Shown here piece after piece: positions 6,830 through 18,747 of a DNA stretch of 64,000 nucleotides (the stretch's first letter is position 1; each line of letters begins with the position of its first letter). Under the pieces are notes generated by a model. It was not told the DNA's origin. It saw only the letters and a list, made by a program, of their open reading frames with translations, and made no database searches. The translations under genes and the position numbers were made by a program. The stretch is from assembly GCF_029285175.1 (NCBI RefSeq), contig NZ_JABEDH010000001.1, forward strand, positions 558,001-622,000, read 5' to 3'. Source of the DNA: Sulfitobacter sp. M05 (GTDB taxonomy: Bacteria > Pseudomonadota > Alphaproteobacteria > Rhodobacterales > Rhodobacteraceae).

Positions 6830-7738
6830 TCAGGCCGATGGGGTGTTTTCGTCTTTCCAGCGCCGGTAGGCTGCGTTTAACCCGGCCAATGTCATGGGCT
6901 CGGCATTTGCAACTGTGGCCGGTGCGCCTTGTGTTTGCAGGGCACGGACATAGGGCGCAGCCGCTGCGTCGGTCCCGATGATGGCGATGTTGGTGCCCAG
7001 CCAATAAGGGCGCGCGGCAGCCAGTTCTGCACCGATCAACAGGCCGGTCAGCCGCGCCCTCCCAACTTCGACGGGGGCATCATCCAACAGCTGATCGGCG
7101 TGAAGCGTGAACAGCCGGGCGGCAAGTTTCTCGGGCTTACTCAGGGCTTCCTCGACGGTGGTGTCAAAGGTGCCCTGATCCCAATCTTCGGACGCAACCG
7201 ACGGGCGCAGCACCGAATGCGCGGCCAGAAGGCTGGCTAGCGTGCCGCTCATATAGGTCTGGAAGCTGACCACTTCGCCAGCGGAAATCTGGGCCCATTT
7301 TGTGTGCGCACCTGGCAGGCAGATCACCCCGTCCCACTCTGGATTCAGCGCAAGGAAACCGGCGATACGGGTTTCTTCGCCATGCATAATGTCCGAGGGT
7401 GTGGTTTGCCGCAGGCCGGCAACGACATGCAGGTTGAAATGCGCGCTTGGGGCGGGAACCGGCCCTTGAGCCAAAGGCGGGCAGGGCACAGCGTGACGGG
7501 GGACATCAATCCAGCCACCAGAGGAGCCGAGCAAACCGCAAGCGATAACCGGGGTCTGTTGTGACACCTGCCAGCCATCCAGAACTGCCGTCAGGGCCAG
7601 TTCGAAACCGTCGCGGGTTGATCCGTCAATTTCGTCGCTGGAGTGTGCTTTGGCCAGTGCGCGTCCTTCGGCCATTGCCCAGGCACACAGGCTATTGCTG
7701 TCCCAGTCTAGCGCGATCCAGTCCGGTGTTACATTCAT
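6830..7738 (-). CDS. 2-dehydro-3-deoxygalactonokinase family protein, divergent
   Basis: This 302-residue protein of the DgoK family (sugar kinase/actin fold) would phosphorylate 2-keto-3-deoxygalactonate in galactonate breakdown. Family landmarks are recognisable: CGLLGSSGGW, HGEETRIAGF and LPGAHTKWA. The phosphate-binding start is altered, however: the usual DWGTSSLRAW reads DWDSNSLCAW. The usual partner, a KDPGal aldolase gene, is absent, and both flanks are gene-free. The gene may be an eroding remnant of a galactonate operon or have changed substrate. The start at 7738 (ATGAATGTAACACC) follows a GGTAAG site; an upstream in-frame start gives a basic, non-family extension. Confidence 0.7.
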   Translation of the reverse strand: MNVTPDWIALDWDSNSLCAWAMAEGRALAKAHSSDEIDGSTRDGFELALTAVLDGWQVSQQTPVIACGLLGSSGGWIDVPRHAVPCPPLAQGPVPAPSAHFNLHVVAGLRQTTPSDIMHGEETRIAGFLALNPEWDGVICLPGAHTKWAQISAGEVVSFQTYMSGTLASLLAAHSVLRPSVASEDWDQGTFDTTVEEALSKPEKLAARLFTLHADQLLDDAPVEVGRARLTGLLIGAELAAARPYWLGTNIAIIGTDAAAAPYVRALQTQGAPATVANAEPMTLAGLNAAYRRWKDENTPSA

Positions 7739-8101
7739 TCTGGTCTTACCCTGTCTGTATCCGTTTGTTTCATTGGTCTTTGTTATCGGGCTGGCATCCT
7801 TATGGGGCCGTCTTTTGTGACCAAGGCCAAGCCTGTTTATCCCCCGCAAGAGTTCCGGACAGCGGCAGGCCAGCGCCTTTCAAGGATGCGCGGTCAATCT
7901 ATCCGGTGCCGCCTGATTGTCCAGTCGTGCGATTGGTCAAATGCCTGCTGTCAGGGCGGGCTGTGCTTGGGCATTAAAAACAGTTTCTTGCGATTTCATA
8001 GTGCAGTGCAGCATTTCCTTTACGTATAAAATGTTTTTACTTGAAGCATGGTTGCTTTGGCCCTAGCCTGATCTCAAGACTGCGGAATTGGGGAGACTGA
8101 A
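7739..8101. other. Intergenic region upstream of the tryptophan/anthranilate operon
   Basis: These 363 bases hold no convincing gene; short open frames here lack ribosome sites and family resemblance. The last 100 bases are AT-rich (a TATAAAAT tract at 8025-8032) and presumably contain the promoter of the operon starting at 8102, which has GGGAGA just ahead of its start. I could not assign a -35 box or a clear MarR-type palindrome. Confidence 0.4.
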
Positions 8102-10393
8102 ATGCGTGCGATTTGTCTGGGCGGCGGGCCTGCGGGCCTTTATTTTGGAATTTCATTAAAGCTGCGCGATCCATCCGCAGAGGTGACGGTGCTTGAACGT
8201 AACAAGCCCGACGACACCTTTGGATGGGGCGTCGTATTGTCAGACGAGACGCTTGATAATCTTGAGGCGAACGATCCGGTTTCAGCCGCCGAGATTCGCA
8301 AGAATTTCGCCTATTGGGATGACATGGCTCTGATCTACAAGGGTCAGAAAACCGTCAGCACGGGGCACGGGTTTTGTGGCATTGGGCGCAAGAAGCTGTT
8401 GCAAATCCTCCAGGCACGGGCGGCCGAGCTGGGGGTGGACCTGCAATTCGAAACCGAGGTGGAGGCCGCATCGACATATCAGGATGATTATGATCTGGTG
8501 GTCGCCTGTGACGGGTTGAATTCGAAAACCAGGCTGGAGTTTCAAGATACGTTCAAGCCTGACATCGACGTGCGAAAATGCCAGTTCATCTGGCTGGGAA
8601 CCCATCAGAAATTCAACGATGCCTTTACCTTTATCTTCAAGGAGACGGACAAGGGATGGCTTTGGGTACATGCCTATCAATTTGACGATGATACCGCGAC
8701 TTTCATTGTGGAATGCAGCCAGCAGACCTTTGAGAACTACGGTTTCGCGGACCTGAGTCAGCAGGAAACAATCGCCATCTGCGAGGAGGTTTTCAAGGAT
8801 CACCTTGACGGTAACGCTTTGATGACAAACGCAAACCACATTCGCGGCTCTGCCTGGATACAGTTCCCGCGGGTGCTGTGCGAAACTTGGCACCACGAGA
8901 ACGTCGTGTTGTTGGGGGATGCGGCGGCGACTGCGCATTTCTCAATCGGGTCGGGGTCGAAACTGGCGCTGGAATCGGCGATCTCACTTGCCGATCACAC
9001 CATCGCGGAAACCGATATTGCCGTGGCGGCCGAGAAATACGAAGCGGCCCGCCGCCTTGAAGTTCTGCGCCTGCAATCCGCTGCGCGCAACTCGCTTGAA
9101 TGGTTCGAGGATGTCGAGCGCTATCTGGATCTTGACCCGGTGCAGTTGAACTATTCCATGTTGACGCGCTCGCAGCGGATCAGCCATGAAAATCTGCGCG
9201 AACGGGATCCAGAATGGCTGGCAGGTGCCGAAAAATGGTTCATGGAACAGGCCGGTGTCCAGACCGATGGCCCCGCCCGTGCGCCGATGTTCGCGCCTTT
9301 CCAGCTGCGGGATATGACACTTGAAAACCGCATCGTTGTTTCCCCAATGGCACAATACAAGGCGGTCGACGGTGCGCCAACGGACTGGCACCTGATCCAT
9401 TACGGCGAACGCGCCAAAGGTGGGGCCGGGCTGGTCTATACCGAAATGACATGTGTGTCGCCGGATGGCCGCATTACGCCGGGCTGTCCGGGGCTTTACG
9501 CGCCTGAACATGAGGCTGCGTGGCAGCGTTTGACATCCTTTGTACATGCGGAAACTGACGCGAAAATCTGTTGCCAGATTGGCCATGCGGGCCGCAAGGG
9601 ATCCACGCGGATCGGTTGGGAGGGCATGGACAAACCTCTGGCCGAGGGGAACTGGCCGATCTGTTCAGCCTCTGCAATCGCGTGGTCGGATGAAAATGCC
9701 GTGCCACAAGAGGCGAGCCGCGCTGATATGGACCAGATTCGCGATGCCTTTGTCTCTTCTGCGGAAATGGCCGAACGCGCCGGTTTTGACATGATCGAGC
9801 TTCATGCCGCACACGGGTATTTCATATCGTCCTTCATTTCGCCGCTGTCCAACACCCGCACGGATGAATACGGCGGCAGTCTGGAAAACCGGATGCGCTA
9901 TCCTCTGGAGGTCTTTGCCGCGATGCGTGCTGTCTGGCCGCAGGGCAAGCCGATGTCGGTGCGGATTTCGGCCAATGACTGGACAGGGGATGATGGTGTG
10001 ACCCCGCAGGAGGCTGTGAAAATCGCACAGATGTTCGAGGCCGCCGGTGCCGATATCATTGATGTTTCGGCGGGACAAACCTCGACCGAGGGTCAACCAG
10101 TTTATGGCCGCATGTTCCAGACCCCGTTTTCGGACCGTATCCGCAACGAGGCCGGGATCAAGACAATGGCCGTGGGCAATATTTATGAGGCCGATCATGT
10201 GAATTCCATTCTGATGGCAGGGCGGGCCGATTTGGTTTGTATCGGGCGCCCCCACCTGAGTGATCCGTTCTGGACGCTGCGTGAAGCGGCGGCGATTGGC
10301 GACCGGCAGGGGAAATGGCCCTTGCCCTATGCCGCAGGGCGGGATCAGATGTGGCGACTGGCCGATAAGGCGACGGAAATGGAGAAAGTATGA
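8102..10393 (+). CDS. Bifunctional 2-aminobenzoyl-CoA monooxygenase/reductase (or salicylyl-CoA 5-hydroxylase-type fusion)
   Basis: This 763-residue fusion has two halves. Residues 1-390 form an FAD monooxygenase: the dinucleotide site is [10 protein letters not shown] at residues 7-16 and the second FAD motif [16 protein letters not shown] at about 275. Residues about 400-760 form an Old Yellow Enzyme-type FMN reductase ([22 protein letters not shown] and [14 protein letters not shown]). This architecture and length match 2-aminobenzoyl-CoA monooxygenase/reductase of Azoarcus, which hydroxylates and then reduces the ring of anthraniloyl-CoA to a non-aromatic oxo-cyclohexene-carboxyl-CoA. The neighbouring anthranilate-CoA ligase, TDO and kynureninase genes make anthraniloyl-CoA the likely substrate. 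It is the first gene of the operon and overlaps the next by ATGA. Confidence 0.85.
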
Positions 10394-11109
10394 GACAGGT
10401 TCTTGTTACGGGAGGTGGTTCGGGCATCGGGCAGGCCGTAGCGCGCGATTTTGCTGCCATGGGCGATGAGGTCACCATTGCAGGGCGCCGTCTTGAGGCG
10501 CTGGAGGAAACCAATGCCGGCGGCAACATGCGCATGGTTCAGGTCGATGTCACCGACGAGGAGTCGGTCAAGGCAATGTTTGATCGGCCTTATGACGTTG
10601 TTGTTGCCAATGCGGGATCCGGACATGCCATGCCGGTTGCCAAGATGCCGATTGAGGTTTGGAATGACACATTGGCGGTTAACCTGACAGGTGTGTTCCT
10701 GACATTCCGTGCTGCCCTTGCTGATATGCCGGCTGGCGGACGGTTGATTGCGATGGCGTCAATCGCCAGCCTGAAAGGCGGCGGGAACCTTGCAGCCTAT
10801 TCGGCGGCCAAACATGGTGTGCTGGGGCTGGTGCGATCCTTGGCCATTGAGGTGGCAAAAACCGGCATCACTTGCAATGCGGTCTGTCCGGGGTTTGTAG
10901 ACACAGAAATGGCCGATGGCGCGGTGCGTAACGTCATGAAGATGATGGATATTGACCGCGAGAAGGCGGAAAAGATGCTGGTCTCCGGCAATCCGATGCG
11001 CCGGATGATTACCTGTGATGAAGTGGTTGCCGCTGTGCGGTTTCTGGCGTCGAAAGAGGCGTCGATGATCAACGGGCATGACCTTTCGGTTTCCGGCGGC
11101 GAGATATGA
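10390..11109 (+). CDS. Short-chain dehydrogenase/reductase
   Basis: This 239-residue classical SDR has the cofactor loop TGGGSGIG (residues 7-14), a NAG motif (VVANAGSG) and the catalytic S-Y-K set in MASIAS and YSAAK. The C-terminal [12 protein letters not shown] is typical of family members whose last strand packs on the cofactor. In this operon it probably oxidises a hydroxyacyl-CoA formed after ring reduction or opening of anthraniloyl-CoA. The exact substrate cannot be read from sequence. It overlaps both neighbours by four bases (ATGA at each end), showing tight coupling to the monooxygenase/reductase and the MarR gene. Confidence 0.85.
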
Positions 11110-11570
11110 CAGAGGCAAAGGATCGCGTACGTCTTTGGCTGCGCCTGCTAAAGACTGTGCGTGGAATTGAAAATGACCTGCGCGAAACGCTGCGGCGTGA
11201 CCACAAAACGACATTGCCGCGGTTTGATGTGATGTCAGCCCTGTCACGCCATCCGCAAGGCCTGAAAATGAGCCAGCTGAGCGGTGTTTTGCGGGTCTCT
11301 AACGGTAATGTCACGGGCATTGCCGACCGGCTGAGCGATGAGGGGCTGGTCGAAAGGGTGGCCGTGCCGGGAGACCGGCGTGCCATCGTTTTGCGGCTGA
11401 CGCAGGCCGGCCTGGCCGAGTTTGAGACCCAGGCGCAGGCGCATGAAGAATGGATTAATGAAAGGCTCAGTGGTGTTAGTCCCGAAGAGGCGCGTGCCAT
11501 GGCCGCGCGGCTTCAGGATTTTGCTGATGCAGCCGAGATGACGATGGAGAAAACGACAGATGCGCAGTGA
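11106..11570 (+). CDS. MarR-family transcriptional regulator
   Basis: This 154-residue winged-helix protein shows a dimerisation helix, a recognition helix ([19 protein letters not shown]) and the wing signature [13 protein letters not shown]. Members inside aromatic-CoA operons usually repress the operon and are released by the aromatic acyl-CoA, so anthraniloyl-CoA or anthranilate is the likely effector (inference). Its place inside the operon, overlapping the SDR and the enoyl-CoA hydratase genes, suggests autoregulation. Confidence 0.88.
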
Positions 11571-12360
11571 TGTGAAGCACTTTCTATGTGAAATCGAAGA
11601 TGGAATTGCCACCGTGCGGCTGGACCGGCCGGACCGCAAAAACCCGCTGACTTTTGAAAGCTATGCCGAGATGCGCGATTGGTTTCGGGATCTGGTTTAC
11701 GCGGACGACGTGGATGTGGTGGTCTTTGGATCGAACGGCGGTAACTTTAGCTCCGGCGGCGATGTGCATGATATCATTGGACCTTTGACGCGCATGAATA
11801 TGAAGGAACTGTTGCAGTTCACCCGTATGACTGGTGATCTGGTCAAGGCGATTGTGAATTGCGGTAAGCCAGTGATTGCGGCGGTGGACGGGATTTGTGT
11901 CGGGGCCGGTGCGATTATCGCAATGGCCTCGGATTTGCGCATAGCCACACCTGAGGCAAAGACCGCGTTCCTGTTCACCCGAGTCGGATTGGCGGGCTGT
12001 GATATGGGGGCCTGCGCCATCCTGCCGCGTATTATCGGTCAAACCCGGGCGGCGGAACTGCTCTATACTGGACGCTCTATGAGCGCCGAGGAAGGCGACC
12101 GCTGGGGCTTTTTCAACCGGTTGGTTTCGGCAGAGGAGTTGGAGGCCGAGGCCTTGGCCTTTGCAAAGCAAATTCAGGCCGGTCCGAATTTCGCTCATAT
12201 GATGACCAAGACAATGTTGGCACAAGAATGGTCGATGTCGATTGAACAGGCGATTGAGGCCGAGGCACAGGCGCAGGCGATCTGTATGCAGACCGGCGAT
12301 TTCGAGCGGGCCTATAAAGCGTTTGTTGCCAAAGAGCGCCCGGTTTTCCAAGGCGACTAG
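11560..12360 (+). CDS. Enoyl-CoA hydratase/isomerase (crotonase) family protein
   Basis: This 266-residue crotonase has the oxyanion-hole segment FSSGGDVHD (about residues 61-70) and a second hole strand [19 protein letters not shown]. At the two positions where hydratases usually carry glutamate (the PE before the second loop and the E of the G-GGTQ region) this protein reads [13 protein letters not shown]. The usual acid pair therefore seems altered, and it may be a hydrolase or isomerase instead of a simple hydratase. It belongs to the lower, beta-oxidation-like part of the pathway. It overlaps marR by 11 bases, with a GGAGAA site inside marR. Confidence 0.85.
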
Positions 12361-12416
12361 GCGTAGCCCGCCGCGGAATGAGTTTATTGGCAAGATGAAA
12401 TTGGGGAGCGCAATTC

Positions 12417-13565
12417 ATGTCTGACCGGAGTTTTTTGACCTGGCCGTTTTTTGAAGATCGGCATCGGGAGTTGGCGGAAGCATTGGATGTGTGGGCGGCG
12501 AGCAACCTGGCCGGCGTTGATCACAGGGATACGGACGCGGCTTGCCGGTCCTTGGTTGAAATGATGGGTGCCGGTGGGTGGCTGCGTCATTCGGCAGCCA
12601 TGGGGGAAGAGAGGTTGGATGTGCGGTCCCTCTGCCTGACACGCGAAACCCTTGCTCGTCACGACGGGTTGGCGGATTTTTGTTTTGCGATGCAGGGGCT
12701 TGGCACCGGTGCGCTTTCGCTTTTTGGCACTGCCGAACAACAGGCAGCCTGGTTGCCCAAAACACGTGAAGGCCAGGCGATTTCCGCTTTTGCACTGACG
12801 GAGCCGCAATCGGGATCGGATGTGGCCAGTTCCACGATGACCGCGACACGGGAAGGCGACGATTTCGTTTTGGACGGGCATAAGACCTGGATTTCCAATG
12901 GTGGGATTGCTGATGTCTATACTGTGTTTGCCCGTACCGGTGAGGGGCCGGGTGCCAAAGGGCTGTCAGCCTTTGTTGTGCCTGCGGACACGCCCGGTTT
13001 GAAGGTAGAGGCGCGGTTGGAGGTGATTGCGCCACATCCGCTTGCGACATTGCATTTCGATGGAGTCAGAGTGCCGGCAACGGCCCTGATCGGAGAGGCG
13101 GGCAAGGGTTTTGGTATCGCCATGTCGGTTCTGGATGTGTTCCGCTCGACTGTCGCGGCGGCGGCCTTGGGGTTTGCACGCCGTGCCTTGGACGAGGCGG
13201 TGGAGCGTGTCACCACGCGCCATGTTCAGGGGGCCCCGTTGTCGGATTTGCAAATGGTGCAGGGGCATATTGCGGATATGGCGGTGGATGTGGACGCCTC
13301 CGCATTGCTGATTTACCGGGCGGCATGGGCAAAGGATTCCGGTGCGGCGCGGGTCACCCGCGAGGCGGCGATGGCGAAACTGTTTGCCACCGATCACGCC
13401 CAGCAAGTTATTGATAAAGCAGTTCAATTACATGGCGGTGATGGTGTGCGGCAGGGCCAGATGGTCGAAAGCCTTTACCGTGAAATACGTGCTTTGCGGA
13501 TTTACGAAGGCGCGTCTGATGTGCAGCGGGTGGTGATTGCGCGCCAGACTTTGGGAGGACGTTAA
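12417..13565 (+). CDS. Acyl-CoA dehydrogenase family protein
   Basis: This 382-residue flavoprotein has the usual order: alpha domain, the central strand domain with [11 protein letters not shown] (about 122-132) and [18 protein letters not shown], then the C-terminal helix bundle. FAD-site patterns include QLHGGDG and [12 protein letters not shown] near the end, the latter containing the glutamate region used as base in the family. It oxidises an acyl-CoA at the alpha-beta bond and passes electrons to ETF. Here it probably acts on an alicyclic or opened intermediate of anthraniloyl-CoA. A GGGGAG site precedes the start. Its end carries the ribosome site for the ligase. Confidence 0.88.
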
Positions 13566-13566
13566 G

Positions 13567-15186
13567 ATGTTGGGACGCTCGGGGCATGTGGATGGATTTA
13601 CGCGGGACAATCTGCCGGATGTGGCGGCCTGGCCTGAATTGTTGCTGGACGGGTTCGCCTATCCCGAGCGGCTGAATGTTGGCGTCGAACTGACGGATAA
13701 GATGGTGGAAAAAGGGTTCGGTGATCACACTGCCCTGATCGGCAACGGGCGCCGGCGCACCTATAAGGAACTGGCCGACTGGACCAACAAGCTGGCGGCA
13801 GCGATGGTTGAAAACCTTGGGATCAAGCCGGGCAACCGGGTGCTGATCCGTTCGGCCAACAACCCGGCGATGGTGGCCTGTTGGCTGGCCGCAACCAAAG
13901 CGGGGGCGGTGGTTGTGAATACCATGCCGATGCTGCGGGCGGGCGAATTGGGGGCGATTGTCGATAAGGCCGAAATCAGCCATGCGCTTTGTGACACAAG
14001 GCTGATGGATGAGATGACGGGCTGCGCCAAAACTTCGTCCTATCTGAAAACCGTGGTCGGGTTTGACGGGACCAGCAATCATGACGCCGAGCTGGACCGT
14101 CTGGCGCTGGAGAAACCGGTGCAGTTTGATGCGGTGGACACGGCGCAAGACGATGTTGCCTTGCTGGGTTTTACATCAGGAACGACGGGTGACCCAAAGG
14201 CAACAATGCATTTTCATCGGGATTTGCTGATCATCGCGGATGGCTATGGCCGTGAGGTTTTGCAGGTCACACCGCAGGATGTCTTTGTCGGATCACCGCC
14301 TTTAGCCTTTACCTTCGGGCTGGGTGGTTTGGCGATCTTTCCGCTGCGGTTTGGGGCGGCGGCGACGCTGTTGGAAGCGGCCAGCCCGCCCAACATGATC
14401 GAGATCATCGAAAAATTCAAAGCCACAGTATGTTTCACCGCGCCGACAGCCTATCGGGCAATGTTGCAGGCGATGGAAGAGGGCGCGGACCTGTCTTCGC
14501 TTAGGGCGGCGGTCAGTGCGGGCGAGACCCTGCCGGCACCAGTCTACCACGACTGGGAGGCAAAAACCGGCAAGCCCATGCTGGACGGGATCGGTGCGAC
14601 AGAAATGCTGCATATCTTTATCTCGAACCGGTTTGATGACCACAAAGCGTCTTGTACCGGCAAGCCGGTGACGGGCTACGAGGCTAAGGTGGTGGACGCC
14701 GACGGCGTCGAAGTGGCGCGTGGCGAAGTGGGCCGGTTGGCCGTCCGAGGGCCAACGGGCTGTCGGTATCTCGCGGACGATCGCCAAGCCGCCTATGTGC
14801 AGGACGGATGGAATATTACTGGCGATAGTTTTTCAATGGACGCAGAGGGTTACCTGTATTTTGCCGCGCGCAACGACGATATGATCATCAGTTCTGGATA
14901 TAACATTGCCGGCCCCGAGGTTGAGGCCGCATTGCTGAGCCATCCGGCGGTCAGCGAATGCGGTGTGGTCGGCGCCCCAAACGAGGCGCGCGGCTCGATT
15001 GTACAGGCCCATATCGTGCTGGTTGACGGGGTGACCGGGGATGATGCCTTGGTGAAAACACTGCAGGATCATGTCAAGCAAACCATCGCGCCCTTCAAAT
15101 ATCCACGTGACATCCGATTTATTGACGCCTTGCCCAAGACAGCGACCGGCAAGATTCAGCGATTTGCCCTAAGGGAGCAGAAATGA
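13567..15186 (+). CDS. 2-aminobenzoate-CoA ligase (benzoate-CoA ligase family)
   Basis: This 539-residue ANL-superfamily enzyme has the A3 motif [18 protein letters not shown], the benzoate-ligase feature [11 protein letters not shown], the hinge region [17 protein letters not shown] and the C-terminal catalytic lysine in TGKIQRF. It would activate anthranilate with ATP and CoA to anthraniloyl-CoA, the substrate of the monooxygenase/reductase at the operon start. The ATG at 13567 follows GGGAGG; an in-frame start at 13537 lies inside the previous gene without a site. It overlaps the TDO gene by ATGA, so anthranilate production and activation are translationally linked. Benzoate itself remains possible but is less consistent with context. 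Confidence 0.85.
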
Positions 15187-16010
15187 CCGATTTCGAAAAG
15201 GCCGCCGAGGGGGCCAAAATGGATTTCGCCAAGGACATGTCCTATGGTGATTATCTGGGGCTTGATGCCATTTTGTCGGCGCAGCATCCGTTAAGTGATG
15301 CCCATGACGAGATGCTTTTTATCGTGCAGCATCAGACATCTGAGCTGTGGATGCGGCTGGCGATTCACGAGTTGCAAGAGGCGCGGCGCGTTATGTTGGC
15401 AGGGGGGCTGAAGCCGGCCTTCAAAATGTTGACCCGGGTGGCCCGGATATTCGAGCAACTGAATTCTGCCTGGGATGTGTTGCGCACCATGACGCCCAGT
15501 GAATACACCGCTTTTCGCCCCTCCTTGGGCAATTCATCGGGGTTTCAGTCGCATCAATACCGGCTTGTTGAATACCTCTTGGGCAACCGTATCGGGGCGC
15601 TGATGGCGCTGCACAAACACAAAGCCGCAGCTTTTGACGCCTTGAGCGCCGAACTGGCTCAGCCAAGCCTCTATCAGGTGGCGATTGATGTGACCTGCGC
15701 GCGTCTGGGCATAGCGTCTTTGGCGGGACTGCCCGGAGAGGGCGATTGGCAGGCCGTTCCGGCGGTTCAGGATATGTGGCAGCAGGTTTACCAAGATCCT
15801 AAAGCCCATTGGGAGCTTTACGAACTGGCTGAAAAGCTCGTTGATCTGGAAGACTATTTTCGACGTTGGCGGTTTAACCATGTGACAACCGTCGAACGGA
15901 TCATCGGGTTCAAACGAGGTACGGGGGGAACATCGGGGGTGGCCTATCTGCGCAAAATGCTCGAAGTTGAGCTGTTTCCCGAATTATGGCAAGTCAGAGG
16001 AGTCTTGTAA
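15183..16010 (+). CDS. kynA: Tryptophan 2,3-dioxygenase
   Basis: This 275-residue haem dioxygenase is of standard bacterial length. Diagnostic segments are [20 protein letters not shown] with the distal H50, [17 protein letters not shown], and [20 protein letters not shown] with the proximal haem ligand H233 and the substrate-contacting GTGG loop. It opens the indole ring of L-tryptophan to N-formylkynurenine in the cytoplasm. It overlaps the ligase gene by four bases and abuts kynureninase. Kynurenine formamidase, needed between the two, is not encoded in this window. Confidence 0.95.
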
Positions 16011-17201
16011 GTGACGAATGTAGTGAGAAAAGAGCAGTTTATCCTGCCTGAGGGAGTCATTTATCTGGATGGTAACTCGCTGGGGCCAATGCCCAAATCC
16101 GTGCCGGCGCGTCTGGCCAATGTGATGAACGAAGAATGGGCCCAGATGCTGATCGGCGGCTGGAACAAAGCTGGATGGATGGCCCAGCCAAGCGAAGTTG
16201 GTAACTCCGTAGGGCGATTGGTTGGTGCGGCCGCCGGTTCGGTCGTTATGGGGGATACCCTTTCGGTCAAGGTGTATCAGGCGCTGGCCGCTGGTATTAA
16301 GATGCGGCCAGAGCGCCGGGTGATCCTGAGCGACACGGGCAACTTTCCAAGCGACCTTTACATGGCTGAAGGGTTGGTGGGGTTGCTGGGGCAGGGCTAT
16401 GAGCTGCGCACCGTCGCCCCCGAAGAAGTCGCCAAATCCATCACCGACGACATTGCCGTGGTGATGTTGACACAAGTGGATTACCGCAGCGGACGCGTGC
16501 ATGACATGCCGGCGATGACCAAACTGGCCCATGATGCGGGCGCGGTGATGGTCTGGGATCTGGCCCATTCGGCAGGGGCCATTCCTGTCGATCTTGCGGC
16601 CTCCAATTGTGAATTTGCTGTGGGTTGTACCTATAAATATCTCAACGGTGGCCCCGGTGCGCCGGCCTTTATCTATGTGCGCCCTGATCTGGCCGACACG
16701 GCAGAGCCGGCGTTGAGTGGATGGTTGGGTCATGCCAACCCATTTGATTTTGATCTGCATTACACCCCCGGCAAAGGGATCGAGCGGATGCGTGTCGGCA
16801 CGCCGCCGGTATTGCAGATGGCCGCATTGGAAGAGGCGATGAAAGTCTGGGACGGCGTGGATATGGCCGATGTCCGGCAGGCATCCATCGCATTGCAAGA
16901 GCAGTTCATCGAAGAGGTTGAACAGGCGGTGCCCGAACTTGAGCTGGCCAGCCCGCGTGATTCAAGCACACGTGGCTCGCAGGTCTCGTTTCGCTTTGAA
17001 CATGGCTATGCGGCGATGCAGGCGGTGATCGAACGCGGCGTTGTTGGGGATTTCCGCGCGCCGGACATCATGCGTTTTGGTTTCACACCGCTCTATCTGG
17101 ATTCCGGTGACGTGAGTGCAGCCGTTGCGGTGATCAAGGATGTAATGACCAATGCGCTTTGGGATGATCCGAAATACAAGGTGCGCAGCCGCGTGACCTG
17201 A
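16011..17201 (+). CDS. kynU: Kynureninase
   Basis: This 396-residue PLP enzyme splits kynurenine to anthranilate and alanine. The aspartate contacting the pyridine ring lies in VWDLAHSAGAIPVDL, and the PLP Schiff-base lysine is K209 in CTYKYLNGGPG. The N-terminal YLDGNSLGPMP motif is also typical. The start is GTG, directly after the TDO stop, with AGAGGAG upstream; no ATG alternative fits. It is the last gene of the operon, ending five bases from the convergent znuB stop. Together with the TDO it supplies anthranilate to the ligase encoded just upstream. Confidence 0.95.
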   Translation: MTNVVRKEQFILPEGVIYLDGNSLGPMPKSVPARLANVMNEEWAQMLIGGWNKAGWMAQPSEVGNSVGRLVGAAAGSVVMGDTLSVKVYQALAAGIKMRPERRVILSDTGNFPSDLYMAEGLVGLLGQGYELRTVAPEEVAKSITDDIAVVMLTQVDYRSGRVHDMPAMTKLAHDAGAVMVWDLAHSAGAIPVDLAASNCEFAVGCTYKYLNGGPGAPAFIYVRPDLADTAEPALSGWLGHANPFDFDLHYTPGKGIERMRVGTPPVLQMAALEEAMKVWDGVDMADVRQASIALQEQFIEEVEQAVPELELASPRDSSTRGSQVSFRFEHGYAAMQAVIERGVVGDFRAPDIMRFGFTPLYLDSGDVSAAVAVIKDVMTNALWDDPKYKVRSRVT

Positions 17202-17206
17202 TTGGG

Positions 17207-18001
17207 TCAGCGGGTACGCAGCAGCGGCGACAGACCGGTCGAAAAAATAAAGATCACCGCCGCTGCGGTAACAATGCTGGGGCCGGTGGGCGTGTCAAAC
17301 TGGAACGAGCCCAGCAGCCCCGCACCCACCGCAACCGCCCCCAGCGCCATGGCCCAAAGCACCATCATCTCCGGTGTGCGGGCAAAGGGGCGGGCAGCAG
17401 CGGCCGGGATGATCAGCATGGCGGCAATCAGCAAGGCACCAACCACCTTGAGGGCAACCGCAACCGTGATCGCAAGTGCAACCGTCAGAATGAGCTGTTC
17501 ACGTTTGGGATGTCCCCCTGACGCTGTGGCCAGATCGGGGTTCAGTGTGGCCGTCAGCAAGGCTTGCCAGCGCCAAAGCAGCAGTAGCGCCACCAATATG
17601 GCACCCGACCAGATTAACAGGACATCGCCTTTGTTCACGGCCAGAATGTCACCGAACAAATAGGCAGAAAGATCAATGCGTTGCCCCGGAACAAGGGAGA
17701 TCGCGACAAGCCCCAGCGCCAGCCCCGCATGGGCCAGAACCCCCAAAAGAGTATCCGTGCTGACATTATGTTCTGACAGGGTGCTGACGATCAGGGCCAT
17801 AGCAAGGGCGACAACCAAAACACCACCAATCACCGGTAGATCCATCGCCAGCGCAAGGGCAACCCCCAAGAGCGCGGCGTGGCTGGTGGCATCCCCGAAA
17901 TAGGCCATACGCCGCCAGACCACAAAACAGCCCAGAGGGGCAGCGGCCAAAGCAACGCCAAGACCCGCAAGGGCGGCGCGAAAAACAAAGTCGTCCATCA
18001 T
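17207..18001 (-). CDS. znuB: Zinc ABC transporter permease
   Basis: This 264-residue protein has about eight hydrophobic helices and the ABC-3 (ZnuB/MntB) permease pattern, including WRRMAYFGDATSHAALLGVALA near the N-terminus. It forms the inner-membrane channel for zinc delivered by ZnuA. The start MMDDFVF at 18001 overlaps the znuC stop as ATGA. A longer in-frame extension encodes a low-complexity antisense-like stretch inside znuC and is rejected. The order on this strand is zur-znuC-znuB. Confidence 0.92.
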   Translation of the reverse strand: MMDDFVFRAALAGLGVALAAAPLGCFVVWRRMAYFGDATSHAALLGVALALAMDLPVIGGVLVVALAMALIVSTLSEHNVSTDTLLGVLAHAGLALGLVAISLVPGQRIDLSAYLFGDILAVNKGDVLLIWSGAILVALLLLWRWQALLTATLNPDLATASGGHPKREQLILTVALAITVAVALKVVGALLIAAMLIIPAAAARPFARTPEMMVLWAMALGAVAVGAGLLGSFQFDTPTGPSIVTAAAVIFIFSTGLSPLLRTR

Positions 18002-18747
18002 TGGCAATGCTCGTCGGTGTGATCGTGATCGTGAGAATGGTGATGCGCGTGATCGTGCTGGTGCCGGTAAAGCGCCAGCGTGCCCTGTGTGCCGGTGCCA
18101 AACAGGGCGCGGTATTCCGGGGCATCCGCAACAATTTCGGGGGTGCCTTCGCAACAAATATGACCGTTCAGGCACAGCACCCGGTCAGAGGCGGCCATGA
18201 CGACATGCAGATCGTGCGACACCATCAACACAGCAATGCCCAAGGCGTGGCGGACTTCTTCGATCTGGCGGTAAAAGGCGGCAGCACCGGGTTGGTCCAG
18301 CCCCTGTGTCGCTTCGTCAAGGATCAGGATGTCCGGCGTCCCCAGCAGCGCCCGCGCCAAAAGCACGCGCTGGAACTGGCCCCCCGACAAGGCGGCCATC
18401 TGGGCGCGGCCCAGTTCCGGTACACCTGCACGGAGCAGCGCCCCCTGTATCTCATCTGTCTTCTGGCGCTTGGGCAGGTTCAGAAAACGATGAACGGTCA
18501 AGGGCAGGGTGGCATCAATGTGCAGCTTCTGAGGGACATAGCCAATGCGCAGCCCATCTGCCCGCGTGACACTGCCCGACACCGGTTTCAAGGCCCCGAT
18601 CAGGGCGCGCAGCAGGCTGGATTTGCCCGATCCGTTGGGGCCGACGATGGTGACGATTTCGCCGCGTTCGATGGCAAAAGTCACATCACGCAGCACCGGG
18701 GCACCGCGGTATCCCAATGTCAGGTTCTGGGTGTTAATCAGGCTCAC
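17998..18747 (-). CDS. znuC: Zinc ABC transporter ATP-binding protein with His-rich tail
   Basis: The protein has 249 residues. Walker A is GPNGSGKSS, the signature LSGGQFQR and the Walker B ILILDEA, followed by VSHDLHVVMA. The last 25 residues are very rich in His and Asp (HQHDHAHHHSHDHDH), giving a likely zinc-binding tail. I place the start at a GTG (18747) that overlaps the zur stop as GTGA, the coupling used throughout this operon; an ATG at 18774 would overlap zur by 31 bases. The protein powers zinc import with ZnuB and ZnuA. Confidence 0.92.
   Translation of the reverse strand: MSLINTQNLTLGYRGAPVLRDVTFAIERGEIVTIVGPNGSGKSSLLRALIGALKPVSGSVTRADGLRIGYVPQKLHIDATLPLTVHRFLNLPKRQKTDEIQGALLRAGVPELGRAQMAALSGGQFQRVLLARALLGTPDILILDEATQGLDQPGAAAFYRQIEEVRHALGIAVLMVSHDLHVVMAASDRVLCLNGHICCEGTPEIVADAPEYRALFGTGTQGTLALYRHQHDHAHHHSHDHDHTDEHCQ

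Follow-up and report, generated by a model that had tools for sequence, protein, structure and literature searches.

The 64,000-nucleotide stretch of Sulfitobacter sp. M05 DNA analysed here (contig NZ_JABEDH010000001.1, positions 558,001 to 622,000; hereafter the window) carries an operon of eight genes on the forward strand, between positions 8102 and 17201, as delimited by open reading frames (ORFs) and family profile searches. With a probability of roughly 85%, we read it as an operon for the catabolism of L-tryptophan and anthranilate via 2-aminobenzoyl-CoA, the substrates being deduced from the enzymes encoded. We also consider it likely that the operon belongs to a two-operon regulon, in which its MarR-family regulator and a 29-bp palindrome are shared with an operon for an ABC transporter and a RidA-family protein in the same genome (C7); this presupposes that MarR binds the palindrome. 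The features are as follows.

8018-8046, no strand: imperfect palindrome of 29 bp and candidate operator for MarR, 55 bp ahead of the fusion gene
8102-10393, + strand: 2-aminobenzoyl-CoA monooxygenase/reductase-type fusion of an FAD monooxygenase and an old yellow enzyme (OYE), 763 aa
10390-11109, + strand: short-chain dehydrogenase (SDR), 239 aa (PF13561, 3e-50)
11106-11570, + strand: MarR-family regulator, 154 aa (PF12802, PF01047)
11560-12360, + strand: crotonase-family protein, 266 aa (NF006107, 475 bits, cut-off 330; nearest solved relative 3g64)
12417-13565, + strand: acyl-CoA dehydrogenase (ACAD), 382 aa (PF00441, PF02770, PF02771)
13567-15186, + strand: aryl-CoA ligase (probable substrate 2-aminobenzoate), 539 aa counted from ATG
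15183-16010, + strand: tryptophan 2,3-dioxygenase (TDO), 275 aa
16011-17201, + strand: kynureninase, GTG start, 396 aa

The identities of the encoded proteins carry this reading. The fusion scores 1294 bits against NF006101 (cut-off 1078), contains the PF01494 and PF00724 domains, and its halves match solved VioD-type monooxygenases and OYE-type NADPH dehydrogenases; the two-domain flavoprotein that a pathway of the Azoarcus evansii type requires is present. The best solved relative of the ligase is 4wv3, named 'Anthranilate-CoA ligase' (295 bits), followed by a benzoate-CoA ligase (247 bits). TDO exceeds the cut-off of PF03301 with 242 bits and matches the solved TDO 2nox over nearly its full length, and the kynureninase does the same with TIGR01814 (279 bits, cut-off 246) and the solved 1qz9. 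The SDR resembles 3-hydroxybutyrate and 3-oxoacyl reductases and stays under the cut-offs of the 25 NCBIfam families shown, while the ACAD resembles acryloyl-CoA reductase and cyclohexanecarbonyl-CoA dehydrogenase, again under the cut-offs; the SDR, crotonase and ACAD families are too broad for substrate assignment.

The best reading of these genes is a route from tryptophan through kynurenine, anthranilate and 2-aminobenzoyl-CoA to a dearomatised CoA ester, and the steps to that ester would be taken by known enzymes, as described in review passages (PMC6221969, PMC4539516). TDO would open the indole ring of tryptophan, a formamidase encoded outside the operon would yield kynurenine, kynureninase would release anthranilate and alanine, and the ligase would convert anthranilate to 2-aminobenzoyl-CoA. 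The fusion would hydroxylate and reduce this ester to a non-aromatic enamine, 2-amino-5-oxocyclohex-1-ene-1-carbonyl-CoA, which the RidA-family protein of the second operon probably hydrolyses to the 2,5-dioxo ester. Ring opening and the start of beta-oxidation would then fall to crotonase, SDR and ACAD, in an order that is presumed here. In hydrolysis of the BadI type, the ring is opened by a crotonase-family enzyme, and a BadI-like step by the crotonase would give 4-oxopimeloyl-CoA for beta-oxidation. MarR probably represses its own operon and the transporter/RidA operon through the common palindrome; an intermediate, for instance 2-aminobenzoyl-CoA, may release it.

The gene association recurs across the order. 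In a sample of 292 genomes of the order, at least 119 carry the fusion, with at least 120 full-length copies (score of at least 780 bits), 176 have a TDO match (E <= 0.001), and the source genome has one full fusion gene. TDO lies within 25 kb of the fusion in at least 38 of the 119 fusion-bearing genomes (26 on the same strand, 12 on the opposite), against about 1.4 that we calculate for random placement in a genome of 4 Mb across the 109 genomes with both genes listed. These counts are lower bounds (three candidates per genome scored, 150 TDO matches listed), and genome G003 adds one linked case. In a sample of 337 genomes of the class (fusion E <= 1e-150, TDO E <= 1e-30), the fusion was found in 61 and TDO in 51, and coordinates place the two at most 10 kb apart in four genomes labelled as sharing only the class (G555, G467, G449 and G319).

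We compared the gene neighbourhoods of 80 named loci, the best 80 by similarity of at least 581, several of them near-duplicates and 61 with full 10-kb flanks on both sides; the nearest named relatives among the matches listed are Sulfitobacter, and Phaeobacter is absent from the 80. MarR and SDR each occur in 77 of these loci, crotonase and ACAD in 76 and the ligase in 75, while the variable genes comprise TDO (43), kynureninase (35), RidA (43, always on the fusion's strand), an ABC substrate-binding protein (34), thioesterase (31) and an alpha/beta hydrolase (21), the last adjoining TDO on the same strand in eight loci. Since all five core partners lie on the strand of the fusion in 71 of the 80 loci, and TDO linkage far exceeds the expected number, the clustering is not due to chance. 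Among the 43 loci with TDO, it is downstream on the same strand in 30, divergent in 11 and upstream on the same strand in 2; a search for TDO beside the fusion in Rhodobacterales had been proposed from the sequence alone, and the linkage does recur there. Four loci (L144, L170, L172 and L177) have a single-strand order of fusion, SDR, MarR, crotonase, ACAD, ligase, TDO, kynureninase, thioesterase and RidA, the kynureninase of L172 being in two pieces. A further 60 unnamed loci, from 119 other copies, comprise all 37 other TDO-linked cases and 23 more, and are not frequency data.

The SDR (10390-11109 in the window; L108-L187) falls into two groups at one fixed position in the cluster. Across the window and 13 loci, members of the window's group share 64-90% identity and those of the other group 64-93%, against 39-49% from one group to the other, and the split holds even where the fusion genes are 80-90% like that of the window; across 77 loci, a few SDRs are intermediate (51-59%). 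From these comparisons, it looks as if the gene had been replaced in place.

The evidence for a shared regulon begins with an alignment of the regions upstream of 15 fusion genes (the window and 14 relatives), which reveals a conserved block with the pattern CTTnAnnnnTAAAATATTTTnnCTTGAAG. The palindrome at 8018-8046 is the sole match to the consensus in the window, with one mismatch and 0 of 100 shuffles giving a match, the site itself being part of the alignment. A symmetrised matrix was built from 14 distinct sites, all from fusion-gene promoters, and applied to 65 other named loci, which are not mutually independent (one of the 80 was dropped for its short upstream stretch). Upstream of the fusion gene, scores of 20 or more occur in 49 of the 65 loci and of 12 or more in 58; seven loci stay below 12, and in three of the 65 the best score lies elsewhere in the locus. 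The matrix reaches 31.5 just upstream of the transporter/RidA operon, the next best score in that 16-kb stretch being 5.1, and the best score in 20 random 4.07-Mb sequences with the dinucleotide frequencies of the window was 21.7. This site had been noticed by eye before the matrix was run, and the matrix is independent of it; the orthologous operons of close relatives provide a fresh test, in which all three scored highly (27.9, 29.6 and 29.7), with the site some 110-117 bp ahead of the gene for the binding protein. A single transporter that is not orthologous (43% identical), next to which no RidA was found, was also examined and lacks the palindrome. Among further loci, L145 has a site scoring 22.5 some 450 bp ahead of a divergent run with the hydrolase, TDO and kynureninase among its genes, and L149 has one scoring 12.2 at 163 bp upstream of a gene for an ABC binding protein. 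A short pattern allowing up to two mismatches, written after the sites of the transporter/RidA operon and of the cupin operon described below were known, was discarded, as it gave four matches in the genome against three for a reversed control. Extra palindromes scoring 26.6 and 29.7 occur about 1.2 kb beyond RidA in two loci (L170:21144 and L177:21143), before no gene of the query set, and there may be a further regulon member there.

The RidA-family protein in question is the last gene of the transporter operon and the nearest match in the source genome (58% identical) to the RidA of the relatives' clusters, and the binding protein of the same operon is 67% identical to one encoded after the cluster in L041. 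Since the dearomatised ester is an enamine and a like control site precedes the operon, RidA is the natural deaminase to consider, and we tentatively assign it the deamination of the fusion's product, at somewhat less than even odds. A third operon (C11) holds an alpha/beta hydrolase gene behind a cupin gene and an FMO-like gene. This hydrolase is 63% identical to the TDO-linked hydrolase of L069; its best match among solved proteins is a putative esterase, kynurenine formamidase matching weakly, and its NCBIfam label is hormone-sensitive lipase. On these similarities, we propose it as a candidate formamidase. Upstream of the cupin gene of C11 the matrix scores 10.4, with -1.1 next best in the stretch. 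In two relatives (L174 and L183), identical sites scoring 14.6 precede an orthologous run of cupin, FMO, in part a second cupin, and hydrolase genes, about 1 kb beyond the RidA of the cluster, and it is from these relatives that the C11 site draws support for membership of the regulon.

Several results weigh against this picture or its parts. NCBIfam names NF006101 a 'bifunctional salicylyl-CoA 5-hydroxylase/oxidoreductase', a name that does not separate salicylyl-CoA from 2-aminobenzoyl-CoA as the substrate. The ligase falls just under the cut-off of TIGR02262 (363 bits against 375) and TDO slightly under that of TIGR03036 (374 against 390.7). Of the 109 genomes carrying fusion and TDO, 71 have no TDO listed within 25 kb of the fusion, the assemblies being partly fragmented. 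A formamidase of the KynB family is missing from the operon, and a canonical KynB was rejected for the whole source genome, where the best TIGR03035 match reaches 34.6 bits and none passes the cut-off of 223. The C11 site is not significant genome-wide, as scores of this height (10.4) turn up 6 to 17 times in each random genome, and taken alone it was rejected as evidence for the regulon. At the position where two of three aligned solved homologues carry the Arg of a PAR motif, the RidA-family protein has Met, so its substrate is not readable from known deaminases. Known RidA substrates are bound at their carboxylate by this Arg, the loss of which would suit a CoA ester. RidA may also not be needed if hydrolysis of the enamine is spontaneous; a passage of PMC3534580 cites earlier work in which acid treatment hydrolytically deaminated the dearomatised ester.

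Two other explanations were weighed. If the fusion and ligase acted on salicylate, or on a 5-hydroxylated product bound for gentisate, the carbon would end in ring cleavage by gentisate 1,2-dioxygenase. The NCBIfam name of the fusion would suit this, clusters of some relatives include a thioesterase gene, and the genome has two gentisate-dioxygenase-like genes (C7 and C15). The first of these lies with FAA-hydrolase and alpha/beta-hydrolase genes convergent to RidA (L105:4367-7269, + strand), an arrangement shared by all four Sulfitobacter-type genomes known here to have the orthologous operon (this one and L197-L199); in one of them (L199), a palindrome-like site scoring 12.6 begins roughly 50 bp upstream of the dioxygenase gene. 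However, both gentisate-dioxygenase-like proteins are under the TIGR02272 cut-off, and the OYE half should dearomatise its substrate, which gentisate cleavage does not need. NCBIfam and Pfam profiles find no gentisate 1,2-dioxygenase among the eight genes of the operon. Given also that TDO and kynureninase in the operon would make anthranilate, that the ligase is closest, among solved proteins, to an anthranilate-CoA ligase, and that a separate cluster (C15) is a better candidate for the salicylyl-CoA/gentisate route, we consider this explanation improbable, and a route without gentisate ring cleavage is plausible. Even less probable, to the point of being very unlikely, is that two separate modules adjoin by accident, with TDO and kynureninase serving another purpose, for example NAD precursor supply or kynurenine signalling, and the core degrading external anthranilate. 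The 71 genomes without a listed TDO nearby, fragmentation considered, would fit such independence, but the joining recurs in the several arrangements described above (30, 11 and 2 of 43 loci) and outside the order, and 7 of the 11 divergent loci have a palindrome scoring at least 20 before the fusion, towards the divergent TDO run.

The C15 cluster (L035:1284-11635, - strand) encodes a stand-alone FAD monooxygenase and a monooxygenase-aryl-CoA ligase fusion of 914 aa, both without a reductase half, a TRAP transporter, a gentisate-dioxygenase-like cupin, an FAA hydrolase and a GST, a gene content that likely represents a salicylyl-CoA/gentisate pathway.

The reading of the operon as one for tryptophan and anthranilate places it among known systems. 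The A. evansii cluster reportedly comprises eight genes, including those for an ABC substrate-binding protein, MarR and a 'translation inhibitor' of the RidA family. Both systems would then have a ligase (here a probable one for 2-aminobenzoate), the two-domain monooxygenase/reductase, three beta-oxidation-type enzymes and MarR, whereas the operon of this genome also contains TDO and kynureninase, and the genes for the ABC transporter and RidA stand in another operon, preceded by a similar palindrome. Phaeobacter inhibens DSM 17395 reportedly degrades tryptophan via kynurenine and 2-aminobenzoate, as would be the case here, and the latter as in A. evansii. Since six genes match the A. evansii-type cluster, and the same route is reported for Phaeobacter, the pathway is not new. 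The sequence-only reading had presented the joining as a complete and, by implication, novel route: its path from tryptophan to the dearomatised CoA ester holds as the best reading of the genes, while novelty does not, given the Phaeobacter report and how widespread joined clusters are, and completeness is contradicted by the lack of a formamidase, a RidA-type deaminase and a thiolase among the eight genes. No title or abstract among the matches listed by a literature search states a link between tryptophan and 2-aminobenzoyl-CoA in roseobacters. Kynurenine operons of the KynBAU type combine TDO, kynureninase and KynB; the first two are shared with this operon, whereas KynB is absent from it, and the candidate in its stead is an alpha/beta hydrolase that adjoins TDO in some relatives.

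Passages of published work provide further points of comparison. The aerobic 2-aminobenzoate route of A. evansii is described in PMC4539516, and PMC5653290 confirms, for P. inhibens, that tryptophan-grown cells were included in the study. In Arthrobacter sp. Rue61a, two anthranilate-CoA ligases, each paired with a putative fusion gene, were active in E. coli, and anthraniloyl-CoA and a presumed hydroxyanthraniloyl-CoA were detected (PMC3534580). Anthranilate-grown cells held the CoA ester of a C7H8O4 acid, possibly cyclohexanedione-carboxyl-CoA (PMC3534580); by our own arithmetic, this is the formula of 2,5-dioxocyclohexane-carboxylate, which fits hydrolysis of the enamine. There, anthranilate comes from a quinaldine upper pathway, and the main text of PMC3534580 contains neither 'kynuren' nor 'tryptophan'. 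An indole degrader likewise has a 2-aminobenzoyl-CoA gene cluster, which proteomics and genetics found vital for anthranilate degradation, the anthranilate in that case deriving from indole (Qu et al. 2017, as cited in a passage of PMC6221969).

As for the layout of the operon, the start, end, strand and protein families named in the sequence-only reading agree with the ORFs and family profiles. Its nine genes reduce to eight, the number its own list of functions names, and 4-bp overlaps, which it ascribed to most junctions, occur at three of seven (10390/10393, 11106/11109 and 15183/15186). The MarR and crotonase genes overlap by 11 bp, gaps of 56 bp and 1 bp separate crotonase from ACAD and ACAD from the ligase, and TDO and kynureninase abut. 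A ninth gene was sought within the operon and none was found; the RidA, thioesterase and cupin genes that lie between ACAD and the ligase in some relatives are missing here, and the sole RidA-like match of the window lies outside the operon, at about 23290 (34% identical, 27 bits). The small cupin gene (about 150 aa) is conserved at that place in L062, L066, L084, L090 and others, and its match in the three stretches of the source genome that were compared is the first gene of the C11 operon (48% identical). The operon is flanked by a divergent 2-keto-3-deoxygalactonokinase-family gene (6830-7849) and a convergent zinc-ABC-permease-like gene (17207-18175). A simple scan for sigma-70-like promoters before the operon gave one on the - strand and none on the + strand. 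Terminator-like sites inside the operon, both strands counted, numbered 7 (expected 4.4, sd 2.0) and 7 (expected 5.2, sd 3.0), those on the + strand all within genes; these scans decide nothing about the operon.

With the pathway already known in outline, what may be worth following is the regulon of two, perhaps three, operons and its candidate enzymes. In its widest form, one MarR and one palindrome would tie together the main operon, ABC uptake, RidA and the cupin/FMO/hydrolase operon, RidA without its Arg would be a new CoA-ester enamine deaminase that makes the 2,5-dioxo ester, and the hydrolase would be a bacterial N-formylkynurenine formamidase unrelated to KynB; we regard this conjunction as possible and rather doubtful. 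If it is true, RidA would fill the undefined step after ring reduction. The steps that follow dearomatisation of 2-aminobenzoyl-CoA are poorly defined, and the conserved candidate operator names deletable genes both for these lower steps and for the missing formamidase, which makes the gap testable in culturable marine bacteria.

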